Source of the DNA: Sphaerochaeta globosa str. Buddy
Lineage (GTDB): Bacteria > Spirochaetota > Spirochaetia > Sphaerochaetales > Sphaerochaetaceae
Length of the DNA: 64,000 nt
Direction: 5' to 3'
NCBI RefSeq assembly: GCF_000190435.1
Contig: NC_015152.1
Coordinates: forward strand, 2,114,458 to 2,178,457
Part shown: piece by piece, positions 54,835-61,191 of the stretch
Layout of the letters: every line of letters begins with the position of its first letter
Numbering within the stretch: position 1 is the stretch's first letter
Notes under the pieces: model-generated
Seen by the model: only the letters and a program-made list of their open reading frames with translations
What the model was told of the DNA's origin: nothing
Database searches by the model: none
Translations under genes and position numbers: made by a program

Positions 54835-56061
54835 ATGCAAATCATTACAATCAAGGATGGTAAGGAAAAGCAACTCCTTCGCCATCACCCTTGGGTCTTC
54901 AGTGGTGCTCTCTCTACCCCAACCACAGCGTTGGAAACCGGAATTGCCAGGGTGGAAACCCAGGAGGGCTCCTTTATTGCCTTTGGCTGGTACGACCAGG
55001 AAAGCCATATCCCGCTTCGACTGCTTAGTTGGGACGAAGCAAGAATCCCTGACATGGCATGGTGGAAACAAGCCATTACCGATAGTGTACGCAGACGAAG
55101 CACCTTTTTTCAGGATAAGGCAGGGGGTACAACCACCTTCCGCATTATTTTTTCTGAAGCCGACATGCTTCCCGGTGTGGTCGTCGATGTGTATGGCACG
55201 CTACTGAGGATCATCATCAGTGCCAGGGTTGCTTGGGACCATCGCGATGTGATTGTCTCCACCTTGGATAGTCTGCTTAAGCCTTCATTGATGCTGCTGA
55301 CAACCGACAGTGCGTTCTGCGGAGCAGAAAAGTTAAGTGAAACCATGCTCTATTATCAGGATGGACAGTATTTCAATCCCTCCAAGCGGCTGGATCCCAT
55401 CCGCTTCCGAGAGGATGGTCTGTACTATGAGGTAGTTCCGGGCAAGGGGCAAAAGAGTGGATTCTACTGCGACCAGCGGGAGAATCGCAAGGCCATCGAA
55501 GCCTATGCCAAGGATGCGGTAGTGCTGGATGGGTGTTCCTACACGGGGGCCTTCAGCCTTCATGCACTGAGAGCCGGAGCAAAGAGTGTTGACTTGTTTG
55601 ATTCCAGCGACCCTTCTCTTCGCCAAGCGTTGGTGCATGTGCATATCAACCAAGATATGAAAACCATCCCCCAGGACAGCCGCAGTAAAGTAACCACTAC
55701 AGTCTGTGACATCTTTGAACAGATGCGAGTCATTGAAAGCAACCACTACGACTTGATGATTCTCGACCCTCCCAAGTTGGCGCAGACCAAGGCGCAAGCT
55801 GAAGGGGCACAAAAGGCGTACAAGGATTTGAACCGTCTTGCCATGCAAAAAATCAAGAACGGCGGCATTATTGCCACCTTCAGTTGCAGTGCATCGATCA
55901 GTGCAGAACAGCTGCGGATGATTCTGGCTTGGAGTGCAAAGGATGCCAATGTTGAGATTCAGGTCCTGAAAGTCCTCGGCCAAGCCGAAGACCATCCAGT
56001 GCGCCTCTCGTTCCCTGAATCAGAATACCTATGCGGGTATATTTTGCGGGTTCTGCGCTAA
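54835..56061 (+). CDS. rlmI: 23S rRNA cytosine methyltransferase, RlmI-like
   Basis: 408 aa. N-terminal PUA-type RNA-binding domain (IITIKDGKEKQLLRHHPWVF) and SAM-dependent methyltransferase domain: VLDGCSYTGAFSLHALRAGA (motif I), MILDPPKLAQTK (DPPK) and a catalytic Cys region ATFSCSASISAEQL. RlmI methylates C1962 of 23S rRNA in E. coli. No ribosome site; start set by the promoter position and the conserved N-terminus. The stop overlaps the convergent YkgJ-like stop by four bases. Confidence 0.85.
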   Translation: MQIITIKDGKEKQLLRHHPWVFSGALSTPTTALETGIARVETQEGSFIAFGWYDQESHIPLRLLSWDEARIPDMAWWKQAITDSVRRRSTFFQDKAGGTTTFRIIFSEADMLPGVVVDVYGTLLRIIISARVAWDHRDVIVSTLDSLLKPSLMLLTTDSAFCGAEKLSETMLYYQDGQYFNPSKRLDPIRFREDGLYYEVVPGKGQKSGFYCDQRENRKAIEAYAKDAVVLDGCSYTGAFSLHALRAGAKSVDLFDSSDPSLRQALVHVHINQDMKTIPQDSRSKVTTTVCDIFEQMRVIESNHYDLMILDPPKLAQTKAQAEGAQKAYKDLNRLAMQKIKNGGIIATFSCSASISAEQLRMILAWSAKDANVEIQVLKVLGQAEDHPVRLSFPESEYLCGYILRVLR

Positions 56062-56696
56062 CTGGCCAACGGATTCGGCGTATCGTCGGGATTGGAATCG
56101 TCAAATTCAAGCATGCTTGCCAGAAATTGAAGCTGGTCGAGCATGCTTGATACTTTTTCCGGGAGGAATCCGACTTCCCCTTCTTGGTCATCAAGTGAAC
56201 GCAATGCATAGGAGTAGTCCTGCATGACGGGAACATCGGCTGTAAAGGCAATATGTTCTGGCATGGTTTTTTCCGCGTTGTATTTGCATCTCCGAAATAC
56301 TGCAGCACCATTTTTGTCCTGATTGGCACAAGCTCCGAACAAGCGGCAGATCAAAGGCCGTGCGGCATACACTGAGCAATGAAACGGGGAATCGAAGCGG
56401 TACAAGGGGCAGGGACCCTGTTGATTGCCCATATTCTGGCGCACGCTTTCAATCAGTGAGGCATCCTTCTTGATAAAGAGCAGATAGGCTGCAACCAAAC
56501 GTGCCTCGCTTGCAGTGATGTCAGGCATGAAATGCTCACAGCAGGTTCCACACCCCGGGCCGCAGGCTATGGCATACTCACTACAAAAGGCATTACTCTT
56601 TTGTTCGATATCTGTATATAGGGAAAACAAGTCGGTCATCGATTGACCGGCGTAGGTTCCGCCAAACGCGGAACAGAGTTGTGCGATGCTGTCCAT
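56058..56696 (-). CDS. YkgJ-family Cys-rich (zinc/iron-chelating) protein
   Basis: 212 aa. Cys cluster CGPGCGTCCEHF and later HCSVYAARPLICRLFGAC plus RRCKY, matching the CxxCxxCC / PxxCRxxG pattern of this family (UPF0153-like), thought to bind a metal or Fe-S cluster. ATG 56696 is selected since AGGAG lies upstream, though 12 nt away; ATG 56735 is the alternative. Function unknown. Confidence 0.72.
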   Translation of the reverse strand: MDSIAQLCSAFGGTYAGQSMTDLFSLYTDIEQKSNAFCSEYAIACGPGCGTCCEHFMPDITASEARLVAAYLLFIKKDASLIESVRQNMGNQQGPCPLYRFDSPFHCSVYAARPLICRLFGACANQDKNGAAVFRRCKYNAEKTMPEHIAFTADVPVMQDYSYALRSLDDQEGEVGFLPEKVSSMLDQLQFLASMLEFDDSNPDDTPNPLAS

Positions 56697-56751
56697 GATA
56701 AAAGTACTCTCCTGAGAACTTTGTGATGGTAGCATTACAAAATTGAGTGAA

Positions 56752-57777
56752 TCAATCGGGTAAGGACCGTTTCTTGCGCTTTTTTCTCCGATTCTCTTTT
56801 TCTGTCACCCGAGCTCCGAGCAAAGACCGTTGCACCAACCTTGCGTTGCGGCGGTCCGAGAGAGTCCAACCACCGATCAGAGCACTTACTCCGCAGAAGG
56901 TCAGGATGCCTATCCAAGCAAAGGGATTGTTCATGAAGGGTAGATTGACGTTCATCCCATAGAAACCCGTAACAAAGGTGGGGAACATCAAGCTGATGGA
57001 GATAATGGTCAGCCGCTTCATGATGACATTCATATTATTGCTGATGACCGAGGCAAAAGCATCCATGGTTCCCGTAAGAATTGAGGAATAGATATTCGCC
57101 ATCTCGATGGCCTGCTTGTTGTCGGTAATGACATCGTCCAAAAAGTCACGCTCCTCCTCCCCTGCCAATTTGAAATAGGGAGTTCGAAGCAGTCGTTCAA
57201 GAAGTGCCTCATTCGTAGTCAAGCTGGTGGAGAAGTACACCAAGGACTTTTGGATCTGCAGCAGCTGAATAAGCTCATAGTTCATGATACTTTTCTGAAG
57301 CTGTTCTTCAACCTGGCTCTTCTGACGGTTGATGTATTTGAGCAGGCGGATGTAGACCATCACAGCACGGCCGAGAATGCTGATCACAAAGCCTTCCATC
57401 GTCTGCACGGGATACTGGCGATATCGGTTCTTGGCAAAGTCCTCAAGCACAATACTGTCACTTTGGCAGATGGTGATGACGGTATCGCGGACCAGAACAA
57501 TGCCCAACGGAACAGCATACTGGTTGATTCCCTTGCAATCATCGGCCATGGCGGGCAGACGCACGATGAGGGCGATGTAATCATCCTCTTTCTCTATGCG
57601 CGCCTGTTCGTCCTGGTCCATGATATCTGCTAGCAATTCACTGGAAATCGAATACTGCTCCTCGAGCTGGGAGATGTCATCGCGGTTGATGTCTCGTGCA
57701 TCAACCCAAGTGTATGGAGCCTCCTGGATGATTTCTCCTGGATTTTGGCTCATCAGATTTTTTCTGATTGTGATCAT
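56752..57777 (-). CDS. corA: CorA-type magnesium/cobalt transporter
   Basis: 341 aa. Large N-terminal cytoplasmic funnel, then two C-terminal helices; the signature YGMNVNLPFMNNP (GMN selectivity filter) follows helix 1, and a basic tail (KENRRKKRKKRS) follows helix 2. CorA conducts Mg2+ into the cell. GGAGGAATT precedes ATG 57777. A structured leader of up to about 190 nt lies upstream. Confidence 0.93.
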   Translation of the reverse strand: MITIRKNLMSQNPGEIIQEAPYTWVDARDINRDDISQLEEQYSISSELLADIMDQDEQARIEKEDDYIALIVRLPAMADDCKGINQYAVPLGIVLVRDTVITICQSDSIVLEDFAKNRYRQYPVQTMEGFVISILGRAVMVYIRLLKYINRQKSQVEEQLQKSIMNYELIQLLQIQKSLVYFSTSLTTNEALLERLLRTPYFKLAGEEERDFLDDVITDNKQAIEMANIYSSILTGTMDAFASVISNNMNVIMKRLTIISISLMFPTFVTGFYGMNVNLPFMNNPFAWIGILTFCGVSALIGGWTLSDRRNARLVQRSLLGARVTEKENRRKKRKKRSLPD

Positions 57778-57779
57778 AA

Positions 57780-57980
57780 TTCCTCCGTGGATGATTGGGG
57801 CGTTCTCCCGATTCCACAGGGGATGGACCTGGTAGGTCTACATGCAATACCAGGAGGACGCCATAAGCGGGTTTCTAGGCAGGGGTGTTATACTGCCACC
57901 ATCGTCTAACGTAGACATCTGGCTCCTCCTTACATGAGATGGCCTGCCTAGCTGGCAAGCACCGATCTCAGTCTAACACA
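57780..57980 (-). promoter_or_regulatory. Structured leader of corA, candidate metal-responsive RNA
   Basis: Within about 200 nt before corA several helices can form: CTAGGCAGG (57875-57883) with CCTGCCTAG (57943-57951); AGGAGGA (57852-57858) with TCCTCCT (57924-57930); CCTGGTA (57828-57834) with TACCAGG (57848-57854); GTCTA (57904-57908) with TAGAC (57912-57916). Both strands of the first helix can instead fold locally (GGCAG/CTGCC at 57878-57897 and CUUGCC/GGCAGG around 57943-57958), giving mutually exclusive structures. It does not show the M-box core I know. No ORF of note. Confidence 0.5.
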
Positions 57981-58023
57981 GACAGAGAAGAAGAATAAAG
58001 GGGGCATGAAAGAAAAATCAACC

Positions 58024-58052
58024 TTTTCCAAATCAAACAAACAGCCTATACT
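58024..58052 (+). promoter_or_regulatory. Promoter of the HD-domain gene
   Basis: TTTTCC (58024-58029), 17-nt spacer, TATACT (58047-58052), followed by AAGGAGG and ATG 58072. The -35 is weak. Confidence 0.45.
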
Positions 58053-58071
58053 CGGTTCAAGGAGGAACGCT

Positions 58072-58623
58072 ATGGTCACGAGAGAAGAAGCCGAGGTTCT
58101 GCTGCGTAAGTATAATCCCAATGAGGCATTGATATATCATGCATTCTGCGTTGAGGAGACAATGATGCGCTTTGCCGTCGAGTATGGTCACGACCCACAC
58201 TACTGGGGCTTGGTAGGCTTACTGCACGACATCGATTGGGGGATGTTTCCCGCTGAGCACTGCAAAAAAGCTCCCGAGCTCTTGAAGGAAATCGATGTTG
58301 ACGACGCATTCGTGCGTGCAGTTTGCAGCCACGGATGGGGCCTGTGCAGCGATATTGAGCCAAAACTCTTCATGGAAAAAGTACTGTATACCATCGATGA
58401 GCTGACCGGCCTGATATATGCGACAGCCCTCATGAGACCGGAACACATGCAGGGCATGGGTGTAAAATCTGTCAAGAAGAAGTGGGCTTCCAAGGGATTC
58501 GCCGCGGGAGTAAACCGCGACTTGATCACCCAAGGAGCTCAAATGCTCGACATCCCACTACAGCACATCATCGATCTCACCATTGAGGCAATGGAAAAAG
58601 CCAGCACCAAAATAGGTCTTTAG
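58072..58623 (+). CDS. HD-domain phosphohydrolase
   Basis: 183 aa. Seen: YHAFCVEETMMRFA, WGLVGLLHDIDWGMFP (about 44-59, HD pair), VCSHGWG, and YTIDELTGLIYATALMRPE, a soluble HD domain like those in COG2316 proteins. ATG 58072 has AAGGAGG 6 nt upstream. Substrate unknown. Its stop overlaps the convergent gene by four bases and a hairpin with a T-run follows. Confidence 0.82.
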   Translation: MVTREEAEVLLRKYNPNEALIYHAFCVEETMMRFAVEYGHDPHYWGLVGLLHDIDWGMFPAEHCKKAPELLKEIDVDDAFVRAVCSHGWGLCSDIEPKLFMEKVLYTIDELTGLIYATALMRPEHMQGMGVKSVKKKWASKGFAAGVNRDLITQGAQMLDIPLQHIIDLTIEAMEKASTKIGL

Positions 58624-60104
58624 GCCAGCGGCATCTGCTCAATGCGGACGATGCCGCTTTTATTGAGCACCACCGTGTAGTGACTATAGTTGTCCAGATC
58701 TTCTTTCTTGGAATACTCGCGGATGACCAAGTGCATATGATAGACCCGTTCGCTACTGAGCTGGTCCAGTTCATCCGCGTTGGGATCCATCCTGAAAACT
58801 ACATCGTTGGGGTCGTCCATTTCCTTGAGGAAGTCATCGAGGCGTATGCGGGTAACAAGGGTGAAATTGTTCTCCCTTGGAAAGCTATCCCGCTCCAAAG
58901 CATGCTTGGTCAAAGGATGCATGGATAGATCGCGGATATAATGAATCACATCCTCTTTGGGGAGCATGTCCCTGAAGGGGTTGTTTTTATCCTTTCGGAT
59001 TTCCTTCACAACAGGAGGGAGATTTTCAACATCCTCAAAGGTGAGACGAATACGGCTCGAACAGATTTTTTTGTTCGTTTTGGGTGAGAGAAACGAGGAT
59101 ATCTCGTCAGCCATCATCCTAGGAAGGACAGCCTTGAAGAAAAGACGCAGCCATTCCTTGATTCTATCCTTGAAGACATATCCAATAATTACTATGAACG
59201 CCCACTGGAAGCTGTTGCGTATGAACGTTGTCTCGGCAAAAATGGTCGTCAATGTAGCGAATGCCATAGCAACACCAGCGGCCGTACCGGCTAGGATTTC
59301 TGAAACACGCTTGGGCCATCGGGAGACTTCAGGAACCAGATAGAGTGAGGATTGGGTCCACTTCTTCAGTATTGCCTTGCGGTACTGCACAGTTTCGGAA
59401 TTATTGCTTCCGCTTGGGTAATCATGTTCACTGCGATATTCCATTTCCTCACGAGAAAAGCTCAGCAACTCCGAAAGGATTTTCGGAATTTGCGGCTGCA
59501 AGGAACTACAAGCCATATACAGGTCGATCGCATGTTTCTCACAGAGCAGGCTGTTCGCTTCATCGGCCCAAAGAAAGGCAAGCAACAAACGATTGTCGGG
59601 ACTGAATTTTGCCTGAATGGCTTCCACAAGGTCGCGGATGGTCACACAAAGCTGGTTTGTATTGGCATGCCAGGCATTCAAGGTCATCTCAAGGTCGTTG
59701 ACCATGCCCAGCTTCACCATGTCCTTGCAATCCTGAAGGCACGCTTTGTTCTCATGCCGCACGGAGTTTACAATGGTTTGCAGTTCATGGATTACGTTGC
59801 GTTCGGGCACACTGGTCACATCCTTAACCAGATCATCGGTGTATCGCTTGAGGATGGTCAGAGGACTGAGGTTGTTGCGCATATCCAGCAGCTCTTCCAG
59901 CGTTATTTCCGGAGAAGAGTACCTTCCATGGCTTTGAAACTTGTGGAGCAGCCGTTCTTCTGAATACGTATTCTTGTTCACATACAACTGTGGTGGGGAA
60001 AACAGATAGTAGTGAATTTCGCGGTCATACCGTTTTGTCTCAGGAATCGGCAATATGAGTTTAGTTTCCAGGTGTCTGCTCGAGTGTTTACGAAGATCTA
60101 TCAA
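58620..60104 (-). CDS. Hypothetical membrane protein
   Basis: 494 aa. Large soluble N-terminal half (helical, ELLDMRNNLSPLTILKRYTDD), two membrane helices near 277-315 (ILAGTAAGVAMAFATLTTIF and WAFIVIIGYVF) and a charged cytoplasmic C-terminal half ending VVLNKSGIVRIEQM. No family recognised. TTG 60104 is chosen because GGGAGG lies 5 nt upstream; the longer frame would overlap pyrC by 118 bp. A good promoter sits just before it. Confidence 0.7.
   Translation of the reverse strand: MIDLRKHSSRHLETKLILPIPETKRYDREIHYYLFSPPQLYVNKNTYSEERLLHKFQSHGRYSSPEITLEELLDMRNNLSPLTILKRYTDDLVKDVTSVPERNVIHELQTIVNSVRHENKACLQDCKDMVKLGMVNDLEMTLNAWHANTNQLCVTIRDLVEAIQAKFSPDNRLLLAFLWADEANSLLCEKHAIDLYMACSSLQPQIPKILSELLSFSREEMEYRSEHDYPSGSNNSETVQYRKAILKKWTQSSLYLVPEVSRWPKRVSEILAGTAAGVAMAFATLTTIFAETTFIRNSFQWAFIVIIGYVFKDRIKEWLRLFFKAVLPRMMADEISSFLSPKTNKKICSSRIRLTFEDVENLPPVVKEIRKDKNNPFRDMLPKEDVIHYIRDLSMHPLTKHALERDSFPRENNFTLVTRIRLDDFLKEMDDPNDVVFRMDPNADELDQLSSERVYHMHLVIREYSKKEDLDNYSHYTVVLNKSGIVRIEQMPLA
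58627..58661 (+). terminator. Terminator of the HD gene, inside the convergent gene
   Basis: AGCGGCAT (58627-58634), 16-base loop, ATGCCGCT (58651-58658), then TTTA. It begins 4 nt after the HD stop codon and lies within the last codons of the opposite gene. Confidence 0.6.
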
Positions 60105-60124
60105 GTCGCCCTCCCGACTGCAGT

Positions 60125-60153
60125 AGTATACAGGAGCGAATGCGCTAACGCAA
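60125..60153 (-). promoter_or_regulatory. Promoter of the hypothetical membrane protein gene
   Basis: Minus strand TTGCGT (60148-60153), 17-nt spacer, TATACT (60125-60130), overlapping the end of pyrC. Start near 60118, then GGGAGG and TTG 60104. Confidence 0.6.
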
Positions 60154-61191
60154 TCGTAACTTGCTAAAGCTGTCGTATGGATAGGCGAGGGAAGCTGCAA
60201 GAGACAGATCTGAAAGCTGGTCGTAGGAGGGGATGGAAATTTCCCGTTCTTCCAGACGGGCAACCTGAAGGATCCTCCCTCCCAGCAGCTGTGTCAGCAA
60301 AGCAGGTGAAGCTCCGTGCTCGATGAGCTGTTTCACCAACAGAAGCAAACCGCTGAAGCCGGGAATGCCGCAGGCTCCCGCTTCCTTGTCTACCAGGGTA
60401 TGGGGTGCATGATCAGTTTCAATCCAGTCCACCCTCCCCTGAAGCAAGGCGGCAAAAAGGGAACTCCTCTGCGTTTCACTGCGTAGCGGAGGATTCATTT
60501 TTGCATACAGTGAACGATCTTTTGCATCCTCTGTTGTGAGAAGAGCGTGATGAGGGGTCACTGCACAGCTGATTCGTCGATGATTGCGCTTTGCCTCCTC
60601 GATACCACGGAGAGCCTCAATGCTGCTGAGATGGCAGATATGCAAATGGCCTTTGAAGCCTGCCTCTTCAGAGAATTGAATCTGGTCGAATACCGAGGCA
60701 ACCTCGGCCTCAACAGGTCTGGCAAGGCTGTGGCTGGAGAAATCATGAGCATCTTCCAAATCAGATTTGAGCAACGACTCCTTTTCGCAGTGAACGGCGA
60801 CCATTCCCTCGTACCCTACCTTTGCCAGGGTTTGGTACACCGTACGCTGCATCGCCTCATCAACAAGGCCCATATTCCCGGTCGAATGCCCGGCAAAAAG
60901 TTTCAAACCGATTACTGAGGGAAACAGCGTTTTTGCAAGAGAGGCAACTTCTTCTACCTGCTTCAAGTCGGAGGTCACTCCGGCCCAAAGGTGGTAGCGG
61001 ACATCCTGGCTGGCATGGGCGGCATCTTTTAGGCGCTTACGGATCGCCGCCTCGGTTGTAAGGGGTGGATTGGTATTCGGCATATCGAACAGCTCATCTA
61101 TTTTGCACCGAAAGGCAACCTCCATCCCATGTCCCAAGGTTTCTTTCTCTGCCTGATCCCAGTCCCTGAGGTGTACGTGTGGGTCAATCAT
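60145..61191 (-). CDS. pyrC: Dihydroorotase
   Basis: 348 aa; closes carbamoyl aspartate to dihydroorotate. Seen: MIDPHVHLRDW (metal HxH), LFDMPNTNPPLTT, LKLFAGHSTG, VHCE, HICHLSSIEAL, and ETDHAPHT, the metal ligands of PyrC; an Lys in GLKLFAG is the likely carbamylated residue. ATG 61191 overlaps the pyrDK stop by 8 bp; ribosome site weak. Confidence 0.88.
   Translation of the reverse strand: MIDPHVHLRDWDQAEKETLGHGMEVAFRCKIDELFDMPNTNPPLTTEAAIRKRLKDAAHASQDVRYHLWAGVTSDLKQVEEVASLAKTLFPSVIGLKLFAGHSTGNMGLVDEAMQRTVYQTLAKVGYEGMVAVHCEKESLLKSDLEDAHDFSSHSLARPVEAEVASVFDQIQFSEEAGFKGHLHICHLSSIEALRGIEEAKRNHRRISCAVTPHHALLTTEDAKDRSLYAKMNPPLRSETQRSSLFAALLQGRVDWIETDHAPHTLVDKEAGACGIPGFSGLLLLVKQLIEHGASPALLTQLLGGRILQVARLEEREISIPSYDQLSDLSLAASLAYPYDSFSKLRLR

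Follow-up and report, generated by a model that had tools for sequence, protein, structure and literature searches.

A candidate cis-acting leader peptide in front of corA in Sphaerochaeta globosa and other spirochaetes

How might the long leader in front of the Mg2+/Co2+ channel gene corA of Sphaerochaeta globosa str. Buddy control this gene? The window, by which we mean the whole stretch of 64,000 nucleotides analysed here (NC_015152.1, positions 2,114,458 to 2,178,457), is part of a single-contig genome of 3.3 Mb. The corA gene has an ATG start, encodes a protein of 341 amino acids and lies at 56752..57777 on the minus strand, so its leader is read on the minus strand as well, from about 57963 down to 57778. 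The product matches the Pfam CorA family with an E-value of 1.2e-56 and scores 121.7 bits against NCBIfam TIGR00383, below the cut-off of 200.75 bits. The Shine-Dalgarno (SD) sequence of corA is GGAGGA at 57786-57781 (minus strand). A first-pass annotation had described the leader as a possible new structured RNA with two mutually exclusive pairings of CTAGGCAGG, and had suggested a metal-sensing element or a leader-peptide attenuator. The leader itself is real. Its 213 nt fold better than most shuffled sequences (z-score of -2.36, with 3 of 200 shuffled sequences folding as well), and there is an SD-led open reading frame (ORF) inside it.

This leader ORF of 26 codons, MSTLDDGGSITPLPRNPLMASSWYCM, lies at 57838..57918 (minus strand) and is conserved in the genus. 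Its ATG stands 6 nt downstream of the SD sequence AAGGAGG (57925..57931, minus strand) and its stop codon is 60 nt 5' of corA. The aspartates of codons 5-6 open the conserved core GAC GAT GGT GGC AGT (D-D-G-G-S; 57892..57906, minus strand), which is the window's only GAYGANGGNGGNAGT match and ends with a serine codon AGT (57894-57892, minus strand) that is near-invariant in the genus representatives. Codons 12-14, CCC CTG CCT (57877..57885, minus strand), encode Pro-Leu-Pro (PLP), which is kept through the genus and retained in related genera of the family, where the synonymous codons differ. All 18 aligned corA loci of the same genus carry the leader ORF, and both AGGAGGA and the ATG-TCT start are invariant among them.

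Upstream of the leader SD, the genus alignment points to a promoter-like block, CCTTTATT...TGTGTTAGACT, at 57970..58001 (minus strand), a prediction in which TGTGTTAGACT (57980-57970, minus strand) is the candidate extended -10 element. Blocks resembling CCCCTTTAT and TGnTAGtAT are kept throughout this alignment; the promoter-like block is absent from the output of a generic promoter scan. This places the predicted 5' end of the transcript near 57963, where the 5' hairpin P1 described below has its base. A search of the corA leader for an intrinsic terminator found none.

The gene at 58072-58620 (plus strand) is divergent from corA, starts near 58072 and has a weak, sub-threshold HDIG match. 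As the promoter regions of this gene and of the corA leader abut, the two may be co-regulated. Next to it is an ORF of 547 amino acids (58620-60263, minus strand), for which neither Pfam nor NCBIfam gave a match at an E-value of 0.001. On the other side, 16 nt after corA, lies a CxxCxxCC gene (56058-56735, minus strand; putative zinc/iron-chelating), which apparently also stands 3' of corA in several relatives. This short distance and the arrangement in relatives suggest a corA operon.

For a wider comparison, corA upstream regions were taken from spirochaete genomes and, through a single CorA scan, from named genomes. Diverged leader ORFs precede corA in other spirochaete families and in Clostridia. 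Among the spirochaete peptides are MDDGSYPLP..., MDEGGSIKPLPRK..., MSDPDGGSPRL..., MDSDPGSKRIYF..., MDETPGSRRRLNFFHFI and MNDPDGSSHPH..., and among the clostridial ones MDTDPGSNTATV..., MNPDPGSINAPS... and MDSDPGGSRDIY.... An acidic residue is found close to the start in the collected peptides, and the N-terminal motif is M-(x)-D-[D/E or xD]-(P)-G-(G)-S, with PLP next in many cases.

The search motif was defined after both locus sets had been seen, and with it an SD-led motif ORF was found upstream of corA at 47 of 95 spirochaete loci, a set that contains close relatives, compared with a mean of 0.17 and a maximum of 2 in 100 dinucleotide shuffles. The same search gave 13 of the 25 named spirochaete regions (0.04 in shuffles) and 5 of 31 Firmicutes regions, these five being Clostridia (0.03 in shuffles). 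The reverse-complement control had 0 matches. Among 11 Bacteroidota-type, five archaeal and seven other loci no SD-led motif ORF was detected, and one Bacteroidota locus (L132) has a motif match without an SD. Genome-wide, the pattern SD-ATG-GAYGANGG has 11 matches, hardly more than the 8 of the backward-pattern control, and at a cursory look the corA leader is the only one recognised among them. The genome also encodes a second, remote CorA paralogue with 22% identity (G000:C1:54143-54988, locus L002). Upstream of this paralogue no leader ORF of the corA-leader type was seen, and the leader peptide seems to be confined to one CorA lineage. Searching the open-access literature, we found no description of such a leader peptide outside Gammaproteobacteria.

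The first residues of the leader ORF are under purifying selection as protein. In 23 close pairs the core, taken from the first acidic residue to the conserved serine plus PLP if present, has 21 differences at 105 synonymous sites and 8 at 345 non-synonymous sites, which corresponds to a dN/dS of about 0.12 (Fisher P 8e-9). Judged from sequence, the conserved core of the leader is a leader peptide, predicted to be translated, and not riboswitch-like RNA. Of the two suggestions of the first-pass annotation it is the leader-peptide attenuator that has support, from the SD-led ORF and its conserved N-terminus under purifying selection.

One codon of the core stands out. The serine of the motif is encoded by AGT in 44 of 46 genus representatives, while AGT makes up 14% of the serine codons in corA of the same loci, and codon identity played no part in the motif search. 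This codon showed 0 changes in 22 pairwise comparisons, whereas the Gly, Asp and Pro codons did change. AGT is also present in the serine block of 7 of the 7 clostridial leaders listed by the motif search. CCT predominates among the early proline codons, at 63 of 102 compared with a background of 28%. A codon-tRNA effect is our simplest guess for the cause of the AGU bias.

The leader RNAs of relatives are structured to a modest degree as well, with group mean z-scores of -1.5 to -2.0. Just upstream of the leader SD, the hairpin P1 (57938..57963, minus strand) can form by the local pairing of CTAGGCAGG with CUUGCC, most of CTAGGCAGG being contained in its 3' arm. Among 17 distinct sequences of the same genus, five of the six tested pairs of P1 vary on both sides. 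Double-change cells number 14 as against 4.3 in shuffles, a value reached by 0 of 500 shuffles, and 84% of the cells are paired as against 70% in shuffles, with all slid controls lower.

The second pairing proposed for CTAGGCAGG (57951-57943) involves its perfect 9-nt complement CCTGCCTAG at 57875..57883 (minus strand). Both pairings are present in the window and P1 covaries, but the pairing with CCTGCCTAG is not kept in relatives. The long-range pairing CTAGGCAGG:CCTGCCTAG has no compensatory change, its proportion of paired cells (59.5%) equals that of shuffles, and we rejected it as a conserved element. CCTGCCTAG is at the same time coding, which the first-pass annotation had overlooked: it is the Leu-Pro-Arg stretch of the leader ORF.

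Another candidate for RNA control is an anti-SD sequence, UCCUCC, in leader codons 21-22 (57853..57858, minus strand), which complements both the leader SD and the corA SD. Within the genus the longest complement to the leader SD has a mean length of 6.6 nt (4.4 in shuffled sequences) and the SD:anti-SD stem is 98% paired, without covariation because both strands are invariant. In seven loci of the family's other genera the mean longest match is 5.7 nt versus 4.2 nt shuffled. Examples from other genera are ATC CTC CCG, ACC CTC CGA and GCA TCC TCC, so the anti-SD occurs in more than one reading frame. The complement is weak in more distant groups. Fold predictions also place a hairpin over part of the corA SD, with low confidence (57782..57823, minus strand). 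As a general switch this hairpin was rejected, since across families the pairing of the corA SD does not exceed that of shuffles. When the leader was folded with the ribosome's position masked (at codon 6, at codon 12 or at the stop codon), the state of the corA SD did not shift in a consistent way. From the weak anti-SD in distant groups and the missing signal at the corA SD we infer that wide conservation is a property of the peptide and that the RNA switch would be lineage-specific.

The resemblance to the M-box had been doubted from the start, and rightly: the M-box model (RF00380) has no match in the window or in 40 genomes of relatives, while the B. subtilis and L. lactis controls were positive. 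More broadly, none of the Rfam 15 families, among them the known Mg2+ and Ni2+/Co2+ motifs, reaches its gathering score in the window and none matches up to an E-value of 1 in 57700-58100. Outside the genus no RNA structure common to the corA leaders was seen, the peptide being all they share. A new structured metal-sensing RNA is therefore not what the comparison favours. The proposed link to metal is likely, given the gene context and the resemblance to CorL and MgtL.

In E. coli, corL translation and corA expression go in opposite directions; the effect of Mg2+ runs through the leader, and Rho takes part (PMC11552253). Like the window's peptide, CorL of E. coli and Salmonella is encoded 5' of corA by a short ORF that has its own SD and RNA structure around it. 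E. coli CorL, MDTPSRYWLTILSSRINS, has an acidic and Pro-rich start, as does E. coli MgtL; its M-D-T-P-S start, with an acidic residue, a proline and then a serine from AGT, resembles the spirochaete and clostridial peptides. In a comparison limited to a single E. coli CorL, D-(x)-P-(G)-S with an AGT serine occurs in both, the peptide being too short for a significance test. Unlike CorL, the peptides described here come from Spirochaetota and Bacillota hosts and have the core D-x-D-P-G-S or D-D-G-G-S. The acidic and proline residues of MgtL, as summarised in PMC11552253, hamper its own translation at low Mg2+. MgtL, upstream of mgtA in E. coli and Salmonella, shares with the window's peptide the acidic, Pro-rich N-terminus and a T-P-L-P-R run, which may be convergence or chance; unlike the window's peptide, it belongs to a different transporter and has no G-S motif.

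In Salmonella mgtQ, acidic codons destabilise the ribosome, translation is aborted and competing stems open the ribosome binding site of mgtB (PMC8092293). Both systems have a short ORF with acidic codons early on, and the alternative, mutually exclusive stems by which mgtQ masks or exposes the transporter's binding site would have their putative counterpart here in the leader SD, anti-SD and corA SD. Unlike our ORF, mgtQ has 8 amino acids and is intergenic within an operon, and the likeness in sequence is limited to the acidic residues. The corA motif, a riboswitch candidate found in Gammaproteobacteria only (Stav et al. 2019; PMC6429828), is likewise a structured element immediately 5' of corA, whereas none of the Rfam 15 families matches the window's leader. 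In the Mg2+ leader of M. tuberculosis pe20 (Mbox), there is a conserved uORF, and SD1, anti-SD and SD2 compete (PMC12810186), as may be the case here, but the pe20 uORF is controlled by an M-box aptamer, which the window does not have. As in the CorL/MgtL type, the leader of a gene for a Mg2+ transporter contains a short SD-led ORF, predicted to be translated, and its N-terminus is acidic and contains proline (D-D, P-L-P), with ribosome destabilisation being putative here. The anatomy is thus that of CorL and MgtL as far as sequence can tell; the peptide may, but need not, share its descent with CorL.

We consider it probable, though well short of certain, that the peptide encoded in the corA leader is of the CorL/MgtL type and acts in cis, and that corA is switched on when low Mg2+ makes ribosomes abort its translation early. 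With ample Mg2+, the leader ORF would be read through to its end and corA held down: the UCCUCC anti-SD, released from the leader SD, would bind the corA SD, and, alternatively or in addition, transcription might be terminated early. At low Mg2+, ribosomes would become unstable or slow at the acidic and Gly-, Ser- and Pro-containing start (D-D-G-G-S...P-L-P), and translation would break off early. Renewed pairing of the anti-SD with the leader SD close by would then leave the corA start open, and more Mg2+ channel would be made. The output would act in cis, and the free peptide would not be the effector. In three Treponema-like loci (L061, L063 and L068) the leader ORF extends 29-50 nt beyond the corA start, so full translation of the leader would cross the ribosome binding site of corA. 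These loci fit the proposed direction, in which complete leader translation represses corA. No MgtE match and no M-box were found in the genome, which would make leader control of CorA physiologically sensible. The sensed metal could alternatively be Co2+, Ni2+ or Mn2+.

The nearest alternative from the RNA side is a riboswitch, in which the leader RNA would fold around Mg2+ or Co2+ and so hide or free the ribosome binding site of corA, the ORF being secondary. The covariation of P1 within the genus, leaders that fold somewhat better than shuffles and the gammaproteobacterial precedent of a proposed corA riboswitch (PMC6429828) would all suit it. We nevertheless regard it as quite unlikely, because Rfam has no match even at an E-value of 1, because the families have the peptide and not an RNA structure in common, with CTAGGCAGG:CCTGCCTAG not conserved, and because the core tolerates synonymous changes that an aptamer core would resist.

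The codon preferences raise another reading, classic attenuation through tRNA supply in place of ribosome destabilisation, where the signal would be slow decoding of AGU and CCU, brought about by starvation for Pro or Ser or by poorly modified tRNA. It would draw on the near-constant AGU and the excess of CCT described above, and in Salmonella mgtL the proline codons are important (Gall 2016, as cited in PMC11552253). Sensing of serine supply by a single AGU codon is improbable, though, many family members have no PLP in their leader peptide, and the most constant feature is the acidic residues; we hold this reading to be unlikely. Conservation of the N-terminus at the protein level would also be expected of a functional small protein that acts, for example, on CorA and is not a cis regulator. 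Against this stands that only the first ~5-13 residues of the leader peptide are kept, that the ORF varies from 11 to 47 codons across loci with an unrelated C-terminus, and that some leader ORFs overlap corA. The free length and the non-conserved C-terminus argue for a cis-acting leader peptide, and a functional small protein appears very improbable to us.

The preferred reading of a cis-acting leader peptide can be extended, speculatively and with considerable doubt on our side, to a widespread ribosome-based Mg2+ sensor for CorA that is common to Spirochaetota, Clostridia and Enterobacteria and consists of a short nascent peptide of the form D-x-(D)-P/G-G-S with an obligatory AGU-decoded serine. 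Ribosome destabilisation driven by the peptide does not account for the near-invariant AGU, and, as a clear pointer to the mechanism, this serine codon needs an explanation in every model based on the nascent chain. If the AGU-dependent sensor is true, the signal would be the nascent chain together with one specific codon-tRNA pairing. Control of Mg2+ transporters via translation of a leader peptide has so far been described mainly in enterobacteria. A corA leader peptide in many spirochaete families and some Clostridia would widen ribosome-based Mg2+ sensing among bacteria, and leader control would explain how Mg2+ uptake is regulated in organisms without an M-box or MgtE.
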